A stretch of DNA of 41,503 nucleotides from Methanocorpusculum sp. (GTDB lineage: Archaea; Halobacteriota; Methanomicrobia; Methanomicrobiales; Methanocorpusculaceae). The stretch is from contig JAUNXT010000001.1 of the NCBI GenBank assembly GCA_030539655.1, forward strand, positions 11,307 to 52,809, read 5' to 3'. Under the pieces are notes generated by a model, which saw only the letters and a program-made list of their open reading frames with translations, was not told the DNA's origin and did no database searches. Position numbers and translations under genes: made by a program. Shown here piece by piece: positions 2,219 to 37,884 of the stretch (within the stretch, counting starts at the first letter, position 1; each line of letters starts with the position of its first letter).

Positions 2219-5023
2219 TTACTTCAGCATCTGCTTCAGGAACTGACCGGTATAACTCTTTTTCACCCGCGCCACCTCCTCAGGCGTCCCCTTCGCAATA
2301 ATCTGTCCGCCTGCACTTCCCCCTTCCGGTCCCAAATCAAGAATATAATCTGCGGACTTAATCACATCAAGATTATGCTCAATGACAATGACCGTGTTTC
2401 CTTTCTCAACCAGACTGTCAAGAACGCCGATTAACTTTTTCACATCATGGAAATGCAGACCGGTTGTCGGTTCATCAAGAATGTAGACGGTCTTTCCGCC
2501 GGAGCGTTTCGCAAGCTCACGGGTAAGCTTAATCCGCTGCGCCTCGCCCCCGGAAAGGGTGGTAGAACTCTGCCCGAGTTTGATGTAGCCGAGACCCACA
2601 TCCGCTAATGTCTGCAGCTTCGCCGTCACATTCGGATGAGCTGAGAAAAGCTCAAGAGCCTCATCCACACTCATATTCAGAACATCCGAGATAGACTTTC
2701 CCTTAAACTTCACCTCAAGCGTCTCTGCATTGTAGCGCGTCCCTTTACACTCCTCACACTCCACATACACGTCCGGGAGGAAGTTCATCTCAATCTTCAT
2801 CACACCGTCTCCGGAACAGGCCTCACACCTCCCTCCTTTCACATTGAATGAAAAGCGCCCGGGACCGTACCCGCGGATTTTTGCCTCTTTCGTTTCCGCA
2901 AATATCTTTCTGATGTCATCAAATACCTTGGTATATGTCGCAGGATTGGAACGCGGAGTTCTGCCGATAGGAGACTGGTCAATTACAATGACATTTTCAA
3001 GTTTGCCGTCAAAGGAAAGAGATTTAAAAGCTCCCGGTGTTTCCTTTGACTGATGAAGTTTTTGTCTGAGCGCCTGATAAAGTGTGTCATAAATCAGCGT
3101 GGACTTTCCCGAGCCGGAGACTCCTGTGATTACTGTCAGAGTCCCGAGCGGAATCTTTGCAGTCACATTCTTCAGATTGTTTTCCGTACATCCGGAAATA
3201 GTCAGATATGAACCGGATGTTCTGCGGGATGCAGGTACCGGAATTGCATACTCTCCGGAAATATACTTCCCGGTAAGCGAGTCTTTTGCTTTGGAAATCT
3301 CCATGGGTGTACCAGCAGCGGTTATTTTTCCCCCGTAAATTCCGGCACCAGGCCCTATATCAATGACATAATCCGCAGCGCGGATGGTCTCTTCGTCATG
3401 CTCGACCACAATTACCGTATTCCCGAGGTCACGCAGATGTTTCAAGGTTGCTATCAGTTTCTGGTTATCCCTCTGGTGCAGACCGATGGAAGGTTCATCA
3501 AGGATGTACAAAACCCCCATCAGATTGGAACCAATCTGCGTCGCAAGGCGTATACGCTGCGCCTCCCCTCCGGACAGCGACCCGGCACTGCGCGAAAGCG
3601 TAAGGTATCCGAGACCAACCTCCTGCAGAAAGGTAAGACGCGAATGAATCTCGCGAAGAATCAGGCGTGCAATCTCTCCCTCTTTTTCCGTCAGCTCAAG
3701 GCTGTCAAAGAAGGAGAGGGCATCATCAATCGACATATCTGTTACATCAGCGATGGATTTTCCGGCGATTTTTACCGCAAGCACCGACTCTTTCAGACGC
3801 TTCCCATGGCATGTCGGGCAGGGAAGAATCCGCATGAACTTTTCAAGCTCTGCCTTCCGGTAATCAGACTTTGACTCGGAGTGCAGACGGGCTACCTGCG
3901 GAAGGAGACCCTCCCATGTTCCATGATAGGCGAACTCGGCATTCCGGGAACTCTGTTTGAAATGAATCTTTGCATCTCCCGTTCCGTACATCAGCCCGTT
4001 GTACTGCTCTTCGGTAAGCTCTTCGATAGGTGTCATCAGAGTAAAACCGAGATAATCTCCTACTCCTTTCAGATACTGGACACGGAACCCGTCAAAATAA
4101 TTTTTATAGGTGGCAACCGCCCCTTCGGAAATCGAGAGACTCTTATCCGGGATTATCAGATCGGGGTCAAAAATCATCTGGAACCCGAGACCATTACAGG
4201 TAGGGCACGCCCCGAACGGACTGTTAAAGGAGAACATACGCGGCTGAAGCTCCTCAAACGACATGCCGCAGACAGGGCACGCCATTTTTGCGGAGTAGAC
4301 GGCATCTTTTGCATCTCCGCCGGATGATACATACACAAGACCGTCTTCAGCATGTTCCAGCGCCTTTTCCACCGCCTCATTGATACGCGAACGGTCCGAT
4401 GCATCACACCGGTCGATTACGATATCGATGTTATGCATAATGTAGCGTCCGAGTTTTATCTCATCGTCAGTACGGTAAATCTCTCCATCGACACGCACCC
4501 GGGTAAAACCGTCCGCGTTTAAATCGCGAAACAGCTGCTCGTACGTTCCTTTCTTCTTTCTGACGACAGGAGCAAGCACAGTAACCATTCCTGAAAAATC
4601 CGTCATTACCGCATCAGCTATCTGTGCAGGGCTTCTTGCCTCAATTCTTACATGATGCTTCGGACAGTAGGGCACACCGATGCGGGAGAATAAAAGGCGG
4701 AGATAATCATATATTTCGGTAACGGTCCCCACTGTTGAACGCGGATTTTTCGAGGTGGTCTTTTGTTCAATCGCGATGGAAGGGGAAAGCCCGTCAATGG
4801 AGTCAACATCAGGCTTTCGCATCTGCCCTAAAAACTGCCGCGCATAGGCAGAAAGCGACTCGACATACCGCCTTTGCCCCTCTGCATAAATCGTATCGAA
4901 CGCAAGAGTGGATTTACCCGAGCCGGAGACTCCGGTAATTACCGTTAGTTTGTCACGGGGGATTGTCACGGAAATATTCTGGAGATTGTGCTGCCGCGCC
5001 CCCTTTACCTCGAGATTCTTCAT
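2219..5023 (-). CDS. uvrA: Excinuclease ABC subunit A
   Basis: At 934 residues this is a full-length UvrA, the damage-recognition ATPase of bacterial-type nucleotide excision repair. It has two ABC modules. The first Walker A is GVSGSGKST near residue 33, and the same motif recurs near residue 635. The signature motifs are [12 protein letters not shown] and [12 protein letters not shown]. Zinc-binding cysteines are in [10 protein letters not shown]...CPTCNGLG and in CEACSGDG...CEECKGT. Motifs typical of the DNA- and UvrB-binding surfaces are present. uvrB and uvrC are not in this window. UvrABC in archaea is known mainly from mesophilic methanogens and halophiles and is thought to have come from bacteria. 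The gene stands alone, convergent with the UPF0173 gene. Confidence 0.98.
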
Positions 5024-5071: not shown

Positions 5072-5866
5072 TCACTTCCTGACCTCTGTAAGATGAGCAA
5101 ATAGAGCTGCATAAATTAAGGAAAACATCGTCTGTTTCCGGAAATAGATAACCGTCCCTGTTACCCCGCGCTCTGTCATATTTATGCTCAGCATCTCTGT
5201 CCGGTCCGAGAGGCAGATAATACGGTTTTCACTGTGAATCTTCTGAACAAAGTCATCCGCGGTCCCAATCTGTTTCAGGATATCCTGACTTAACAGATAG
5301 CAGGGGAGAGGAATCTGCTCCGCAAAAACGGGGTCTGCAACGAGGACTCTGAGGAAAAGACGCCGGGACAGCTGCTTCAGGGCTTTGTCGGAAAAATGAT
5401 TCTTAAAATATTCCATATCATTTACGAATATCACCATCTCTTCCTTTGATTTTGAACAGAGGTTCTGCAGATGTGTCTCAACCACCCACCCGGAAGACAG
5501 CTCATAGGATTTAAGGGACATCCGGTCCGGGATATTATTGTGCCGCTCAAAGTTATTCAGGTACGTTTCGATTGTATTATAGACATTAATGGACTCGGCA
5601 CGTAACCGGTCAAAAATCTTTTTTGTATCAACTGCAGCATATCTGACCGGTTTTCCCCCGCTGTTTTCCACAAACCCGCGCGTCTCAAGGGATGCTAAAA
5701 CACTGTATATTTTATTCCTTGGAACACCGCTGAATGCATAAATATCTTTGACAGATGCTGATTTCAGGTGAAATATGATATAATACACCTTTCCCTCGTT
5801 TTCCGAGAGACCAAGCTGTCTCATTTTCGAGAGAAACTCCCCGTCGTCTTCAACCGGACTATTCAT
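5072..5866 (-). CDS. TrmB-family transcriptional regulator
   Basis: The 264-residue protein starts with a winged helix-turn-helix (about residues 12-85: LGLSENEGKVYYIIF, SGVPRNKIYSVLASLETRGFV) typical of the TrmB/sugar-specific regulator family. A probable dimerisation helix and a C-terminal domain follow, with VIFVND and RRLFLRVLVAD segments. Family members repress or activate transporter genes in response to ligands, but the ligand here cannot be read from sequence. The gene is divergent from the ABC export module, about 205 bp away. Related GTTAC half-sites sit at both promoters, so it probably controls that module and itself (inference). The ATG at 5866 is preceded by a TATA-like AAAATATAAG about 25-35 nt upstream. 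Confidence 0.82.
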   Translation of the reverse strand: MNSPVEDDGEFLSKMRQLGLSENEGKVYYIIFHLKSASVKDIYAFSGVPRNKIYSVLASLETRGFVENSGGKPVRYAAVDTKKIFDRLRAESINVYNTIETYLNNFERHNNIPDRMSLKSYELSSGWVVETHLQNLCSKSKEEMVIFVNDMEYFKNHFSDKALKQLSRRLFLRVLVADPVFAEQIPLPCYLLSQDILKQIGTADDFVQKIHSENRIICLSDRTEMLSINMTERGVTGTVIYFRKQTMFSLIYAALFAHLTEVRK

Positions 5867-17868: not shown

Positions 17869-17927
17869 CGGTTGTCTGAATAGTCCCAGTGACATGTTTA
17901 TATCCGGTGTATTCTAAATATGTAAGT

Positions 17928-18176
17928 ATGGCTGTATTGAATGCATTAGAGCTGACAAAATATGATTTTCGTGAATATGGTCTGATTTATGTTGATTATG
18001 AGGTAGATGGTGCAGCAGTAACTGATACGTTCACGTACGATTCTGCGACCGGTGATGTTATCTACAAGTCATCCGGTTCTGCATTCGAAACCCTGAGCAG
18101 TGCACAGGCATTAACGAAGATCCGGAATCTTGAACAGCAGTATCATGCTGACATCTCCGTGAACGCCTTCTTCTAA
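17928..18176 (+). CDS. Small protein of unknown function, 82 residues
   Basis: The ATG at 17928 lies about 25-32 nt after a TATA-like TTTATATCC (17897-17905), so a leaderless transcript is plausible. The protein is acidic and soluble, with beta-like segments YGLIYVDYEVDG and DTFTYDSATGDVIYK followed by a helix ALTKIRNLEQQYHADI. I do not recognise the family. Codon use resembles neighbouring genes, and a T-rich tract follows the stop, so it is probably a real single-gene unit. Nothing suggests secretion or metal binding. Confidence 0.65.
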   Translation: MAVLNALELTKYDFREYGLIYVDYEVDGAAVTDTFTYDSATGDVIYKSSGSAFETLSSAQALTKIRNLEQQYHADISVNAFF

Positions 18177-18196
18177 ATTTCTGTTTTTCTTTTTTG
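18177..18196 (+). terminator. T-tract terminator after the 82-residue protein gene
   Basis: ATTTCTGTTTTTCTTTTTTG follows the stop codon directly. Two T runs with no strong stem are typical of archaeal U-tract termination. Confidence 0.55.
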
Positions 18197-19685
18197 GCCG
18201 GGTGCGGCTCGGTGTTCTTTTGTGTGGGCCCCATTTCTTATATGGTGTATACCTCTGTGTTCCCTGAAATGGTCTGTTATTCCGGGTATTTTTCCAATTC
18301 ATTTTGTATAGCATTATGTGGTTTATTTGTTATGTGTTTTTGGTTATGTCGACTGTACCCTCTGGCAGATTTGGAACTATTTGCAGTGTTCTGCTTGTTT
18401 TTGAGTGCTTTCTCTTTCTGTATGCAGTTTTTGGAAAAACCCTGCATCTTTCTCTTTCTGAATGTTTCTGTCAATGATCTGCGGGTGTTTGGGGTAATAG
18501 AGGGTATGCTGGCCGGTAAAATCCGGTACATCTGTTATTGTTCGGGGGTTTGTGAAGCTGTGTCCGTGGGATTTTTCTGTTCACTCTGTCTCCTTTTTTC
18601 TCTATCTCCGTATCGTGAGGTATTTACCCGGTTTAATCTCATTTTCAAGATGTATACTATCGAGGGGGGAGCTGCCAGGTATGCGGGGATAGATGCTGTA
18701 TCCGTATGTGTGTGCATGGTGATTCGCTCGGAGGTTTAGTCTGATTTTCATGTTTGACTCCGTATTTGCCAGGCAAAAATGACTCTTCTGCTTTTGAACA
18801 GCTGCTTTCTTTTTTAACTCTGAAACACACTCCAAACCCGGTTTTCAGGGGCAATTCAGGCTGGAATCTCCCGGTGTGTTACATCCTTATCATCTCAGTT
18901 GATACCTGAATACATTTGATTCCGGGTTGAAAAAGGGCTGTGGCGGTATCTATTTTTTTTGCTGCAGTCTTCTTTATGCGTAGTTCCTCATGTCAGGCGG
19001 CCTGAAATCCTGGTTGGCAGACGGTGGGATTTGGTAAACAGAGGGGTTTCAAAACCCGGATCCTTGAGTCAGCAGGTCGGGGTAAATAGTTTGATTCTCC
19101 CTTCAAATGGGAAATGCATGTTGTATCAGAGATTTTTGGAATCTCCCTGGAAAATATGTTTCATCTCTTCTTCTCAGGGAATCCGGTTTTGGTTTGGGAG
19201 AATCTTGTCTGCAGCAAATGCTTTTCCTTAATTTCCAAAGGTGTCTCATTCCCTTTCCTTTGATGATGGTTTTATCTTTTGGATTTAGTCGGGCAGTCGT
19301 TTGGATAATTTTTATCCTGATGTTTTTTTTTCGGTGTCCTTATGGTTTCCTCTCTGCAGGTCTTGTTCAGTTGTGGGTCGGTTATTGTTTTTGAGTTCAG
19401 TCTCCTTTTCAATCATGATTTTTCTTTGGTCTGCCGAAAAACAGGCCTTCATATCGGGATTTTAAAGCCATTTCTGATAGTGGGTGGAGTATTCCATCGT
19501 CTGAAGATTTGATTATCTCTATTTTCGTTTATTTGCCTGTTCCCTTTTTCAGAATATGCACTGTCTCTCATCAGCAGCCCCGGATACCCGGATTTTTCTG
19601 AAAAATTATGAAAACTTCAATTTTGCATTTATTTTTAAAAATAAGCTCATTTATTGGATATTTTAGATCCTTATAAATGCCCTGG
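18197..19685. other. Long T-rich intergenic stretch with no supported gene
   Basis: About 1.5 kb shows no convincing coding region. The plus strand is visibly T-rich with G over C, so plus-strand frames translate as artificial-looking hydrophobic, cysteine-rich strings, and minus-strand frames are short. Small stems are present, such as GGGTTTCAAAACCC, GAGATTTTTGGAATCTC and TCCCTTCAAATGGGA. It could be a decayed minus-strand gene, a non-coding RNA locus, or sequence shaped by its position beside the dif-like site. I see no repeat array, tRNA or insertion-sequence ends in it. Confidence 0.6.
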
Positions 19686-19687
19686 TA

Positions 19688-19715
19688 ATTTCGCATAATA
19701 TGTATTATGCGAAAT
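19688..19715. other. dif: dif-like Xer recombination site
   Basis: The site has two 11-bp arms, ATTTCGCATAA and TTATGCGAAAT, around a 6-bp centre TATGTA. This is the exact 11-6-11 layout of XerC/XerD targets. Compared with Escherichia coli dif (arms GGTGCGCATAA and TTATGTTAAAT), the left arm shares CGCATAA plus one more base, and the right arm matches at 9 of 11. The whole palindrome extends to 19686-19717 with 15-bp arms. It ends 28 bp before the xerA ATG. The position near a TATA-like TTATTATAAGG (19718 on) means it could instead be, or also be, an operator for xerA. Confidence 0.7.
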
Positions 19716-19743
19716 TATTATAAGGTGTGGGGTCCAATATAGT

Positions 19744-20685
19744 ATGTTAGCTATGGCAGAAGTGCGGAGAACGTTCAGTTCCTGGATTCCAAGGTACATC
19801 AGCAGCCTTCAGACCAAGAACTATTCGGCAAATACCGTGGAGGCATATGAACGTGTGCTGAAACTGTTTGCGAGGTATGAGATGTACCTCAAAGAAAATG
19901 ACGGAGAACTTCCTGCAGCTACTGTGGATTTTGAGGACAAAACCCTTGGAGCAGATATAGATGTGACTTCTCTGGATATTGTTGATTTTTTTACGCTTAT
20001 CAGAAATGAACGTCATTTATCAGCGTCAAGTATCCATCAGTACGATTCGGCTTTATCCTCATTCTACCAGTATTTGATTAAACAGGACGTTTTATCGGCG
20101 AATCCGATGGATAAAATTGATAGGCCGAAGATTAAAGACCGGGAGCTTAAGTACCTGCGTCACCAGCAGGTTATGGAGTTCATCTCCTCTTTGAAAAATC
20201 CCCGTGATTCTCTCCTGGTGCGGACAATTTATGCGACCGGAATGCGTGTTTCCGAGGTTTGTGAAATGAAAATTGAACACATTGATTTTAACGAGGAAAC
20301 AATACGTGTTCGTGGAAAAGGAGGCAAAATAAGGGTTGTTTTCTGTGATTTTGACACCCTTAATATGATTCGGAAACACGTCGGGGAGAGGAAAACCGGC
20401 TTTGTTTTCGAAGGACGCGGAGGGGCTGCTTTATCTCCAAGGACAGTGCAGCACGTCTTTAATCTCTATGCTCCGGAGGGTATTACTCCGCATAAAATCC
20501 GCCACAGCTATGCCAGTGAGCTGTACCGCAGATCCCATAATATCCGTGTTGTTCAGGAAAATCTCGGACATACGTCGATTAAAACCACTGAAATCTATGT
20601 CCACACGGACCTTGATGAGAGAAGAGAGGCATATCACCAGTACTTCCCGCTTGCAAATAACGGTCCGGAATCAGTTGCGAAGTAA
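19744..20685 (+). CDS. xerA: Tyrosine recombinase XerA/XerC-D type
   Basis: The 313-residue protein is a complete Xer recombinase, which resolves chromosome dimers by recombination at dif. The N-terminal SAM-like core-binding domain spans about 10-115 (NYSANTVEAYERVLKLF, SASSIHQYDSALSSFYQYL). The catalytic domain carries R168 (ATGMRVSE), K192 (RGKGGKIR), H250 and R253 (PHKIRHSYASE), H276 (ENLGHTSIKTTEIY) and the nucleophile Y285. All expected catalytic residues are present. The start is ATG at 19744, with another ATG 9 bp on. The dif-like palindrome lies just upstream, and a DUF5806-like gene follows by 55 bp. It could also be a mobile-element integrase, but no element is visible around it. 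Confidence 0.93.
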   Translation: MLAMAEVRRTFSSWIPRYISSLQTKNYSANTVEAYERVLKLFARYEMYLKENDGELPAATVDFEDKTLGADIDVTSLDIVDFFTLIRNERHLSASSIHQYDSALSSFYQYLIKQDVLSANPMDKIDRPKIKDRELKYLRHQQVMEFISSLKNPRDSLLVRTIYATGMRVSEVCEMKIEHIDFNEETIRVRGKGGKIRVVFCDFDTLNMIRKHVGERKTGFVFEGRGGAALSPRTVQHVFNLYAPEGITPHKIRHSYASELYRRSHNIRVVQENLGHTSIKTTEIYVHTDLDERREAYHQYFPLANNGPESVAK

Positions 20686-20740
20686 TTTATAGGATGTGTA
20701 ATAAACTATATGATGCTATACAACAATTTGGTGCCCTACT

Positions 20741-34258: not shown

Positions 34259-35332
34259 TTAAGTTTCACCATCTTTTGTTCTGCATACATGCTTTTTCCG
34301 GCACTTCGGGCAGAGTACATCCCCGCATTCGCGGCATTTTCTCATCTTTGATTTCGGGAAGGATTTTCCGCAGCCGTCACAGATTATCTCTTCTTCCTCT
34401 TTCTTTCCCTTTGTGTCTGTGCTTTGAGGGGAGGACTCTTTTGCCTCCGGGTTTTCTTCTCTTTTTTTATCTCCGGTCTTCTGCGGTTCCGGTGTTTTTA
34501 TCTCCCGGTTTTCTCCCTTTTCCTTATCTTTTGTCTCCTGCGTATCCGATGTTTTTTTCTCCCGTTTTCCTTCTTTTTCTGCTGCGGTCTCTTTTTGTTT
34601 ATCCTTGTCCTTGTCCTTATCTTTATCCTTATCCTTTCCCTTTCTGTCTCCCGGTTTCGCACAGGAGTGGTGTTTCCTGCATTTCGGACAAAGGACTGCT
34701 CCGCAGTTCTGGCACTTCCTCATCTTTGATTTGGGGTATGAGTTTCCGCATCCGTCGCAGACAATCTGCTCTTCCTCCTCTTCTTTTGCCTCTGCCTCCT
34801 TTTTCTCTCCGTCCGTTTCTACTGCATCTCCGGTTTGTGCCGCTTTTTTGCCGGCGAAGAGCGGAATAAATCCGAGTACGCTTTTTTTCTCGGGTTCAGG
34901 TCTTGGACAGCGGTGTTTTTCCCTGCAGATCTGGCAGAGTACCATGCCGCAGTCGGGGCATTTCCACATGTCGGACTGCGGGTATGACTCTCCACATTCC
35001 TCGCATTCGATGAAAGGATTTAGTGAACGCACATACGCGGAGTAGGCTTCGTCTTCGGACATCGGAGCAGGCATATCGTTTTCCATCTCCTGTGGGGCCG
35101 GCAGGAGTGTTTTTGAGGACGCGGCTGCTGATGCTGCAGAGGCCGATAGTACAGGGGCTGATGGTTTGGGGGAGGTGGACTCTGCTGTGCAGTCATGGGT
35201 TTTCTGACATTCCGCACAGAAGAGTTCTTTGCAGGCGCTGCACTGTTTCAGTTCGGAGATGTCAAAGAGTCTGCCGCACCCGGCGCATCTGAGCCGTATT
35301 GTGTTGTCGTTAAACAGATTGTTGTTCGTCAT
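34259..35332 (-). CDS. Protein with four AN1-like zinc modules and charged linkers
   Basis: The 357-residue protein has four 33-residue copies of C-x2-C-x11-C-x2-C-x4-C-x2-C-x3-H-x-C, at residues 16-48, 110-142, 192-224 and 318-350. Eight ligands per copy suggest two zinc ions in a cross-brace, close to AN1 fingers (which have C-x2-H-x5-H-x-C at the end) and B-boxes. Copies 3 and 4 are nearly identical (CDGCG.S.PKSKMRKC). Linkers are low complexity: Ala/Ser-rich after copy 1, then Lys/Glu/Asp-rich with a KD dipeptide repeat (about 231-246). There is no membrane segment. It is probably cytoplasmic and may bind nucleic acid or proteins. I know no named family with this four-copy layout. Confidence 0.85.
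   Translation of the reverse strand: MTNNNLFNDNTIRLRCAGCGRLFDISELKQCSACKELFCAECQKTHDCTAESTSPKPSAPVLSASAASAAASSKTLLPAPQEMENDMPAPMSEDEAYSAYVRSLNPFIECEECGESYPQSDMWKCPDCGMVLCQICREKHRCPRPEPEKKSVLGFIPLFAGKKAAQTGDAVETDGEKKEAEAKEEEEEQIVCDGCGNSYPKSKMRKCQNCGAVLCPKCRKHHSCAKPGDRKGKDKDKDKDKDKDKQKETAAEKEGKREKKTSDTQETKDKEKGENREIKTPEPQKTGDKKREENPEAKESSPQSTDTKGKKEEEEIICDGCGKSFPKSKMRKCRECGDVLCPKCRKKHVCRTKDGET
34595..34642 (-). repeat. Hexanucleotide repeat encoding Lys-Asp dipeptides
   Basis: Within the zinc-module gene, about seven consecutive Lys-Asp codon pairs form an imperfect 6-bp tandem repeat. Copy-number change would keep the frame and only alter linker length. Confidence 0.7.
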
Positions 35333-36193: not shown

Positions 36194-36298
36194 ATGTCTT
36201 CAAACTTCATAACTCTGATTTGCATGGTAGTCATGACTATCCTGCAGGTTGTTCACAGTATATGTGAACTCGCTGACCGGTTGAATAAAAAAAGATGA
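36194..36298 (+). CDS. 34-residue hydrophobic peptide, possible small membrane protein or toxin
   Basis: The ATG at 36194 opens 34 codons ending in TGA at 36296-36298. Residues 4-22 form one hydrophobic helix (FITLICMVVMTILQVV), followed by SICELADRLNKKR, a charged basic tail. The architecture (one helix plus a basic tail) resembles small toxic membrane peptides of type I toxin-antitoxin systems and other tiny membrane regulators. The stop codon lies inside the stem of a strong terminator hairpin, so the transcript is compact and self-contained. I know no archaeal homologue. Coding status rests on start, AGGA, helix and terminator. A structured non-coding RNA is the alternative. Confidence 0.6.
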   Translation: MSSNFITLICMVVMTILQVVHSICELADRLNKKR

Positions 36299-36717: not shown

Positions 36718-37884
36718 ATGAAATATATCCTCATCTTAGCAGACGGAGCAGCAGATGAACCGCTCGCGGACCGGGGCGGAAAGACGCCTCTGGAGCTTGC
36801 GGCAAAGCCGAACATGGATAAAATCGCCAGATACGGCCGCTGCGGCATGCTGCAGACCGTCGACCCCTCGCTTACCCCCGGGTCGGATGTTGCAAACATG
36901 TCAATCATGGGCTACGACCCGATGAAATACTACAGCGGACGCGGTGCGCTCGAAGCGCTCAGTATGGGTGTCTCCTTCCCTGAAACCGACTGGGCATACC
37001 GCTGCAACCTGGTAACAATTGAAGACGGAAAGATGAAAGACTTCTCCGCAGGCCACATCACAAGCGAAGAAGGAGCGGCGCTTTTTGCCTCCCTTCAGGA
37101 AAAGTTCCCGGCACTCTCCTTCTACCCCGGGGTATCCTACCGCAACATCATCATGTTCCCCGGCGCAAAAGGCTCTGAATCCTATCCTCCGCACGACATC
37201 GTAGGTGAGGATATCGCTCAGTATCTCCCCAAAGGACCTGATGCGGAGGTTCTTCTCGCCGCCATGAAATGTGCTGAAGAAGTGTTCCGCGATCACCCGG
37301 TAAACAAGGCGCGTATTGCCGCAGGAAAAGCGCCTGCTACGACCATCTGGCCCTGGAGCGGCGGGAAAAAGCCTGAAATGCCTGCATTTGAGGATGTCTA
37401 CGGCAAAAAAGGAGCGGTTATCTCCGCGGTCGATCTGCTCTTCGGAATAGCTGCATGTGCGAAGATGCAGATAATCAAAGTCGAGGGAGCAACCGGATTC
37501 CTTGATACCAACTTCATGGGCAAGGCAAAGGCGGCAGTTGACGCGGCAAACGGGGATGCAGACTTTGTCTATCTCCATGTCGAAGCAACAGATGAGGCAG
37601 GACACATGGGAAGCATTGAGGAAAAGATCCGTGCCATCGAAAATCTGGATAAAGCTGTCGGCTACATTCTGGAGCACTTCGACGGAGTTGTCATGCTGAT
37701 GCCTGACCACCCGACGCCGATTGTGAAAAAGACGCACACCCACGACCCGGTCCCGTTTGCGATAATGGGGCCCGGATTTGAAGCGGACGGCTGTCAGTGC
37801 TACACGGAAAAAGAATGCCGCGAAAAGGGTGCATTCGGGACCATTAAGGCAGCGTCGCTTCTTAAGATGGTGTTTGAGAACTAA
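36718..37884 (+). CDS. apgM: 2,3-bisphosphoglycerate-independent phosphoglycerate mutase, archaeal type
   Basis: The 388-residue enzyme interconverts 3- and 2-phosphoglycerate in gluconeogenesis and glycolysis. It belongs to the alkaline-phosphatase superfamily aPGAM group. The N-terminal ILILADGAADEP holds the first metal aspartate, and TPGSDVANMSIMGYDP the catalytic serine. YLHVEATDEAGHMG and MLMPDHPTP..THTHDPVPF supply the remaining metal ligands. Its length is typical (about 400). A TATA-like AAATATAC lies about 20-25 nt before the ATG, suggesting a leaderless mRNA. It is separated from neighbours by the repeat island. Confidence 0.96.
   Translation: MKYILILADGAADEPLADRGGKTPLELAAKPNMDKIARYGRCGMLQTVDPSLTPGSDVANMSIMGYDPMKYYSGRGALEALSMGVSFPETDWAYRCNLVTIEDGKMKDFSAGHITSEEGAALFASLQEKFPALSFYPGVSYRNIIMFPGAKGSESYPPHDIVGEDIAQYLPKGPDAEVLLAAMKCAEEVFRDHPVNKARIAAGKAPATTIWPWSGGKKPEMPAFEDVYGKKGAVISAVDLLFGIAACAKMQIIKVEGATGFLDTNFMGKAKAAVDAANGDADFVYLHVEATDEAGHMGSIEEKIRAIENLDKAVGYILEHFDGVVMLMPDHPTPIVKKTHTHDPVPFAIMGPGFEADGCQCYTEKECREKGAFGTIKAASLLKMVFEN

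Follow-up and report, generated by a model that had tools for sequence, protein, structure and literature searches.

A dif-like site beside its recombinase gene

A perfect palindrome lies directly before a Xer recombinase gene in this Methanocorpusculum genome, and the question it raises is whether a methanogen keeps its chromosomal dif site next to the gene for the recombinase that would act on it. Our answer, which we hold at a probability of about 0.85 and which draws on sequence comparison, is that the palindrome is the chromosomal dif of this Methanocorpusculum, that it forms one cassette with xerA, and that XerA would resolve chromosome dimers there.

The window, by which we mean the whole 41,503-nucleotide stretch that was analysed, carries on its forward strand a dif-like 28-mer of 11-6-11 layout at 19688..19715. 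Its arms, each a presumed XerA half-site, are ATTTCGCATAA on the left (19688..19698) and TTATGCGAAAT on the right (19705..19715), and they enclose the 6-bp spacer TATGTA (19699..19704), the presumed region of strand exchange. The 28-mer sits within a perfect 15-2-15 inverted repeat at 19686..19717. The longest stem in 20 dinucleotide shuffles of the window was 11 bp, a length attained in three of the 20, and since the shuffled windows never exceeded it the 15-bp stem is not a product of chance. With up to three mismatches allowed, the 28-mer pattern occurs at one place in the window, versus none in 100 shuffles. An earlier reading of this DNA, made from the sequence only, had described an 11-6-11 palindrome of bacterial type beside xerA and had named many genomic copies as an outcome that would speak against dif. 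The palindrome is where that reading put it, and in the genome of origin (a 1.2-Mb draft of 74 contigs, 77% complete) the 28-mer remains single at up to three mismatches.

The bacterial label holds in part. The site shares 21 of 28 bases with E. coli dif, the best score of any 28-mer in the window, the next being 19, and it shares 15 of 28 with the dif of P. abyssi. The consensus for the order Methanomicrobiales, described below, matches E. coli dif at only 17-18 of 28 positions, so that the likeness to E. coli reflects local variation in a site of archaeal type.

The gene, xerA, occupies 19744..20685 on the forward strand. Its first in-frame ATG, at 19744, follows the site by 28 bp, the distance given by the sequence-only reading; a second ATG at 19753, 37 bp from the site, is the likelier start, since in 19 of 21 loci of the genus the first in-frame ATG lies 37-44 bp away. 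The product scores 247 bits against the XerA model NF040815 of NCBIfam (cut-off 220), which makes the gene XerA, and in an alignment with P. abyssi XerA (4a8e) its catalytic residues (R, K, HxxR, H, Tyr285) fall opposite their counterparts. The description of a full recombinase gene is supported. Tyr285 corresponds to Tyr261 of the P. abyssi protein, whose replacement by Phe abolishes the covalent complex. The catalytic column is Tyr in all 158 xerA loci analysed across the order, and stops occur in only three of those alignments, at query residues 308-309 of 313. Against the XerS model NF003462 the product reaches 95.9 bits (cut-off 267), its profile matches include no XerH model, and a structure ranking places XerH below XerA and XerD. 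By these measures the recombinase is outside the XerS and XerH families, and its module would work like theirs without membership. The nearest named relative found, Candidatus Methanocorpusculum equi, has a XerA 98% identical to this one. The genome of origin holds one other match to the tyrosine recombinase family, on a different contig.

Conservation of the cassette

We compared the locus across a set of 61 genomes that includes its own, 25 genomes of the genus and 232 of the order Methanomicrobiales. The genus core CGCATAATNNNNATTATGCG is present in 22 of the 25 Methanocorpusculum genomes, in one copy apiece, and xerA adjoins it in 21 of them; in the remaining one (G022) the site and the start of xerA stand at a contig end. 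The three genomes without the site are drafts, 61-79% complete, that also have no xerA match. All 21 xerA loci of the genus carry the site, with 10 or 11 of the 11 arm positions complementary. Loss of the palindrome from relatives that keep xerA, another outcome that the sequence-only reading had set against a dif role, was thus seen in no congener with an analysed xerA, and the recombinase/site cassette in cis that it had proposed is borne out by linkage to a full xerA in every one of them.

Strong XerA matches were found in 189 of the 232 order genomes, one in each at E 1e-60, and 158 of these 189 loci were analysed, the remaining 31 being left out. The upstream alignment among Methanomicrobiales that had been suggested as a check shows the site conserved: outside the genus, the best 11-6-11 placement falls at one fixed offset from xerA in 125 of 137 loci, and in 106 of these 125 no fewer than 8 of the 11 arm positions are complementary. 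Counting the best placement at each promoter, 132 of all 158 loci reach 8 or more of 11. Outside the interval -75 to -20, comparable palindromes exceed 2% of loci at no offset in -400 to +19. The 12 loci off the common offset comprise seven of the sister genus g2, three in which the site is shifted by 1-2 bases (G052, G222, G134), one g2-like locus (G111) and one with a weak left arm (G141).

The consensus of the 125 fixed-offset sites is approximately ATTGCGCAGAA-TAGGTA-TTCTGCGCAAA, and invariant among them are C at position 5, A at 10, TT at 18-19, G at 24 and A at 27. Outside the genus, conservation is weaker in the left arm than in the right. Once the common consensus is discounted, the two arms co-vary modestly (8.48, where shuffles average 8.18 and reach 8.55). 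When the pattern CGCAGAATNNNNATTCTGCG (arms CGCAGAAT and ATTCTGCG) was sought at no more than one mismatch, 96 of the 232 genomes had it, 86 singly and 10 twice, versus 1 of 232 for a control pattern; a second type of arms, g6, is found in 33 of 232 genomes, all of the genus g6 and once in each. Among the places listed, the single CGCAGAATNNNNATTCTGCG matches of G000 (the genome of origin), G022 and G111 lie away from xerA. The match in the genome of origin (locus L265, G000:C48:34174-34193) is a one-mismatch, chance-like match to the order core, and its arms are unlike those of that genome's own site.

Sister genus g2 departs from the common layout. Six of its seven genomes (G025-G030) have the full palindrome 589-1273 bp upstream of xerA, and at the xerA promoter of all seven the right half-site alone remains; in the seventh genome (G031) no full site was found in the 1.1 kb up to the contig end, nor genome-wide at up to one mismatch. 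The displacement of the full site in g2 shows that site and promoter are separable. A promoter-like motif recurs in the gap between full site and half-site. An inserted gene was considered as the origin of the gap and set aside, no convincing shared reading frame being apparent by eye.

Beyond the order, the XerA query (P0001) matched 15 further genomes in a phylum draw of 146 that included order members (best E 7.6e-38), and seven of these loci were analysed. Two from the family f14 (G248 and G255) carry a comparable site some 0.1 kb ahead of where the reading frame opens, in one of them with the spacer TAGGTA; a third f14 locus (G240) has a 10-of-11 palindrome at a like place, its sequence being unlike. 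At the fourth f14 locus (G261) and at the other three, a site of this kind was not found.

Inversion of the spacer between sister species

For 21 loci of the genus and eight others, the spacer was taken in xerA orientation and mapped on the xerA tree. In four sister pairs, at nodes with support of 98-100 / 96-100, the two spacers are exact reverse complements. The window's TATGTA faces TACATA in the sister species G023, and a second pair shows the same two spacers (TACATA in G002, TATGTA in G024); in the third, TGTCTA (G018) faces TAGACA (G020), a change that substitutions would make only in four steps; in the fourth, TAGCAA (G026) faces TTGCTA (G028). The spacers of G007 and G019 differ by an inversion plus one substitution. 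The spacer is unchanged in the pairs G004/G008 and G029/G030, and the remaining pair consists of distant outgroups. Spacer orientation is largely retained among the 125 fixed-offset loci, one possible further flip being TACCTA in G166 (the commonest spacer is TAGGTA), and four loci of family f4 with near-symmetric arms share a single orientation, TGTATA.

These flips favour, as far as comparison goes, a recombination site over a mere operator. Alternatively, they might be generic inversions of a hairpin loop, for instance by template switching, with no part played by XerA, in which case the site might still be dif. One account (PMC9653739) describes minute inversions at hairpins of plastomes, where loops invert without a recombinase, and most of the flips seen here are at sites whose arms repeat each other perfectly or nearly so. 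We therefore compared hairpins (stem of at least 9, loop 3-10) between 160 kb of G018 and 160 kb of G020. The search yielded 27 hairpins, 11 of them without a counterpart; 16 could be compared, 15 of which are not dif. Of these 15, 11 have the same loop, four have substitutions and none is inverted, so that dif alone is inverted, which counts against generic loop inversion. The control is small: 10 of the 15 loops are 3 nt long, and three of the hairpins are copies of one repeat whose flanks match weakly (32-36 of 60). The 40 kb compared between G026 and G028 yielded a single hairpin, the dif site, and this is inverted. We regard loop inversion without XerA as less likely than not, and read the spacer flips, on balance, as a probable, indirect footprint of recombination at dif.

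Second copies in provirus-like regions and viral contigs

Six of the 10 genomes with two CGCAGAATNNNNATTCTGCG matches were analysed for the nature of the second copy, leaving out G124, G194, G196 and G199. In G138, G142 and G168 it lies within 0.3 kb of a gene for the terminase large subunit (PHROG 7579, E 2.9e-41 to 6e-59), and in G164 and G166 it lies 4-5 kb from an integrase gene, G168 also having an integrase at a similar distance. At the locus of the second copy in G158, viral signs were not seen. All five provirus-region sites have dif-like arms, with spacers that differ from the host's own in either orientation. Since their spacers are unlike those of the host and a tyrosine integrase stands no more than about 5 kb away in three of the regions, we suggest that the provirus sites would serve resolution rather than integration. 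On their loci the sites are at 786 (L252), 2132 (L253) and 6163 (L256) where a terminase is near, and at 5670 (L254) and 7193 (L255) where an integrase is 4-5 kb away.

A viral contig of 41.5 kb (L241, IMGVR_UViG_3300037104_000552) carries a host-type site at 4949-4976, the spacer of which, TAGGTA, is the commonest host spacer. The site is flanked by TATAGTGCAC direct repeats, a terminase is encoded on the contig, and a PF00589 integrase was not found across its 41.5 kb. We consider L241 a candidate for an archaeal virus that exploits the Xer system of its host. Two related viral contigs, L250 and L251, have g6-type arms around the spacer TATCCA, and the parts of all three contigs that were examined hold no significant XerA match. 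A first viral scan had returned 55 exact-match stretches, about the number that a rough estimate gives by chance for so loose a pattern, and was set aside apart from L241, singled out because its entire 28-mer resembles the host site. A second scan gave nine loci, namely L241, five from one family of related contigs, and L245, L248 and L249, the last three being dropped for want of a clear tie to these hosts. As with the flips, the copies away from xerA in viral contigs and provirus-like regions favour, on comparative grounds, a recombination site over a mere operator.

The xerA promoter and other readings of the palindrome

A candidate TATA box for xerA, TATTATAA at 19716..19723 on the forward strand, directly follows the site. 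Every one of the 125 fixed-offset loci has A or T throughout positions 5 to 8 past the site, and 97 of all 158 loci fit a stricter pattern, in which TT precedes three or more A/T. The distance from site to first in-frame ATG in the 125 loci is 33 bp in 86, 6 bp in 21, 18 bp in eight and 30 bp in four, with none there in six. Archaeal promoters hold their TATA box and TFB element at a characteristic spacing; this spacing, together with the A/T block, would put the TATA box directly 3' of the site and make the right arm overlap the TFB element, leaving the xerA transcript nearly leaderless. Because the right arm abuts this probable TATA box, XerA bound at dif probably also represses its own promoter.

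This layout lends itself to a second reading, in which the palindrome is an operator of the xerA promoter and nothing else, bound by XerA or another dimeric regulator, with the true dif elsewhere. The fixed spacing against the probable TATA box, including the 33-bp distance to the ATG in 86 of 125 loci, suits an operator, as does the right half-site kept at the g2 promoter after the full site had moved. Yet the same arms with a 6-bp spacer recur in provirus-like regions on contigs other than that of xerA, the spacers invert as a unit, and both the 11-6-11 layout and the similarity to E. coli dif are features of recombination sites. We find a role as operator alone improbable; that dif and operator are probably combined in one site is included in our preferred explanation.

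Far weaker is the case for a transcription terminator or for a leader hairpin in xerA RNA. The perfect 15-bp stem could form in DNA and RNA alike, and a further TATA-like sequence stands 5' of the site at 19671-19678, but that sequence is altered in the sister species G023, whereas relatives have their conserved A/T block on the 3' side of the site, some 25-30 bp ahead of the ATG, which sets the site upstream of where transcription probably begins. No Rfam match was obtained in the window at the gathering threshold, and on this and the promoter layout we rejected the RNA readings as very improbable. Least credible of all is an attachment site of an integrated element with a XerA-like integrase, for although integrases beside their att sites share the layout of a tyrosine recombinase gene next to an inverted repeat, this recombinase exceeds the XerA equivalog cut-off, the neighbouring frames resemble ordinary chromosomal genes (by eye, six of them profile-scanned) and xerA is present in 189 of 232 order genomes with one match each at E 1e-60.

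Position relative to the terminus

That the site would mark the replication terminus, as the sequence-only reading had also proposed, is only partly supported. With the origin assumed to lie at the best-scoring orc1/cdc6 gene (there is more than one such gene per genome), xerA stands at 153 and 145 degrees from orc1 in the two single-contig Methanocorpusculum genomes, G015 and G017. Across 24 single-contig genomes of the order, a set that contains both, the angle ranges from 43 to 170 degrees with a mean of 111, which departs from uniform at p 0.008, uncorrected for relatedness. The site is thus origin-distal on the whole, but the spread of angles is wide and in G015 the AT skew, noisy up to that point, changes sign near 930-1020 kb, and the site, at 770 kb, is 160-250 kb away. 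The shift in GC skew that had been put forward as a test was uninformative in G015, where GC skew was near zero in most of 18 stretches sampled; AT skew was clearer, and its switch is not at the site.

A model for XerA and dif in Methanomicrobiales

XerA binding, cleavage, dimer resolution and autorepression are inferred here, and the preferred reading may be set out as follows. Two XerA monomers would occupy the two 11-bp arms, and synapsis would join two such sites, carried by a chromosome dimer or by sister chromosomes; cutting at each edge of the 6-bp spacer, followed by strand exchange, would then resolve the dimer. XerA alone would serve both arms, as in other archaea, and site and recombinase gene would be inherited as a single cassette.

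We tentatively extend this to a wider scheme, as a whole well short of even odds. The dif of Methanomicrobiales would sit right up against the xerA promoter, so that occupancy by XerA governs the amount of XerA. Near symmetry of the site would allow XerA to work on it in either alignment. Over evolution the 6-bp spacer would flip, leaving a natural record of recombination. Viruses would borrow host XerA by carrying the same arms with private spacers, having their multimers resolved while avoiding recombination with host dif.

The timing of XerA is one reason for interest in such a cassette: we know of no FtsK in archaea, and a dif that abuts the xerA promoter offers a directly testable feedback. 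If XerA makes the spacer flips, they provide a readout of recombination in the wild from sequence alone. The survey also supplies candidate dif sites for more than 100 methanogen genomes, material for testing dimer resolution in archaea.

Relation to known Xer/dif systems

Cortez 2010 (PMC2958812) describes the dif of Thermococcales as not adjacent to xerA and that of Sulfolobales as close to it, "as opposed to Euryarchaeota"; the published view of euryarchaeal dif as apart from xerA draws on Thermococcales and one methanogen, and most of one order now contradicts it. The claim in the sequence-only reading that Sulfolobus dif lies away from the gene was mistaken by the same account. Given the Sulfolobales and the mention of archaeal "xerA/dif" modules in a review, gene linkage is not new for archaea. 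According to Cortez 2010, P. abyssi XerA recombines dif plasmids in vitro without a partner; it cleaves at the spacer borders.

The Thermococcales share with our case a single XerA, the 11-6-11 layout and a unique chromosomal site, whereas their dif is apart from xerA and has conserved flanks (PMC2958812), and identity to the P. abyssi site is 15 of 28 as given above. The Sulfolobales, compared by description, resemble it in a predicted dif near xerA and differ in a conserved 13-bp flank on one side of their site (PMC2958812). XerS/difSL of streptococci and lactococci and XerH/difH of Campylobacter and Helicobacter likewise pair one recombinase with a gene-linked site, but these recombinases are longer and distant from XerC/D, and difSL is an atypical 31-bp site that depends on FtsK. 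E. coli XerCD/dif is similar in the 21 of 28 shared bases, with TTATG and CGCATAA cores, and unlike in its two recombinases, its control by FtsK and its xer genes near oriC with dif opposite (PMC2958812). Plasmid resolution sites (cer, psi) and IMEX elements place Xer sites on mobile elements, as do the provirus-like and viral copies here, although none of the five provirus spacers is that of the host and a tyrosine integrase stands no more than about 5 kb away in three regions.

The module is, on these comparisons, a variant of known gene-linked Xer/dif systems. What appears new is an order-wide, promoter-abutting site in Euryarchaeota, together with the spacer flips and the viral copies. The available part of a 2021 review of archaeal tyrosine recombinases mentions neither Methanocorpusculum nor Methanomicrobi-, and a search by title, made in open-access literature with subscription journals mostly uncovered, returned no earlier report of the module in Methanomicrobiales.

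Other features of the window

About 1.8 kb on the 5' side of the site (17869-19687) has no convincing gene; a 181-aa frame at 18194 has no Pfam match. The 20-bp motif ATAAACYATATGATGCTATA occurs exactly at 20701-20720 on the forward strand, just upstream of a DUF5806 gene, and again with two mismatches at 18307-18326 on the reverse strand, and its core recurs in both orientations in many loci of the order. It resembles a promoter element that opens with a TATA-like stretch. A second perfect 15-bp stem, with a 4-nt loop, lies at 36289 between a frame that ends at 35332 and one that starts at 36718, and is perhaps a terminator.
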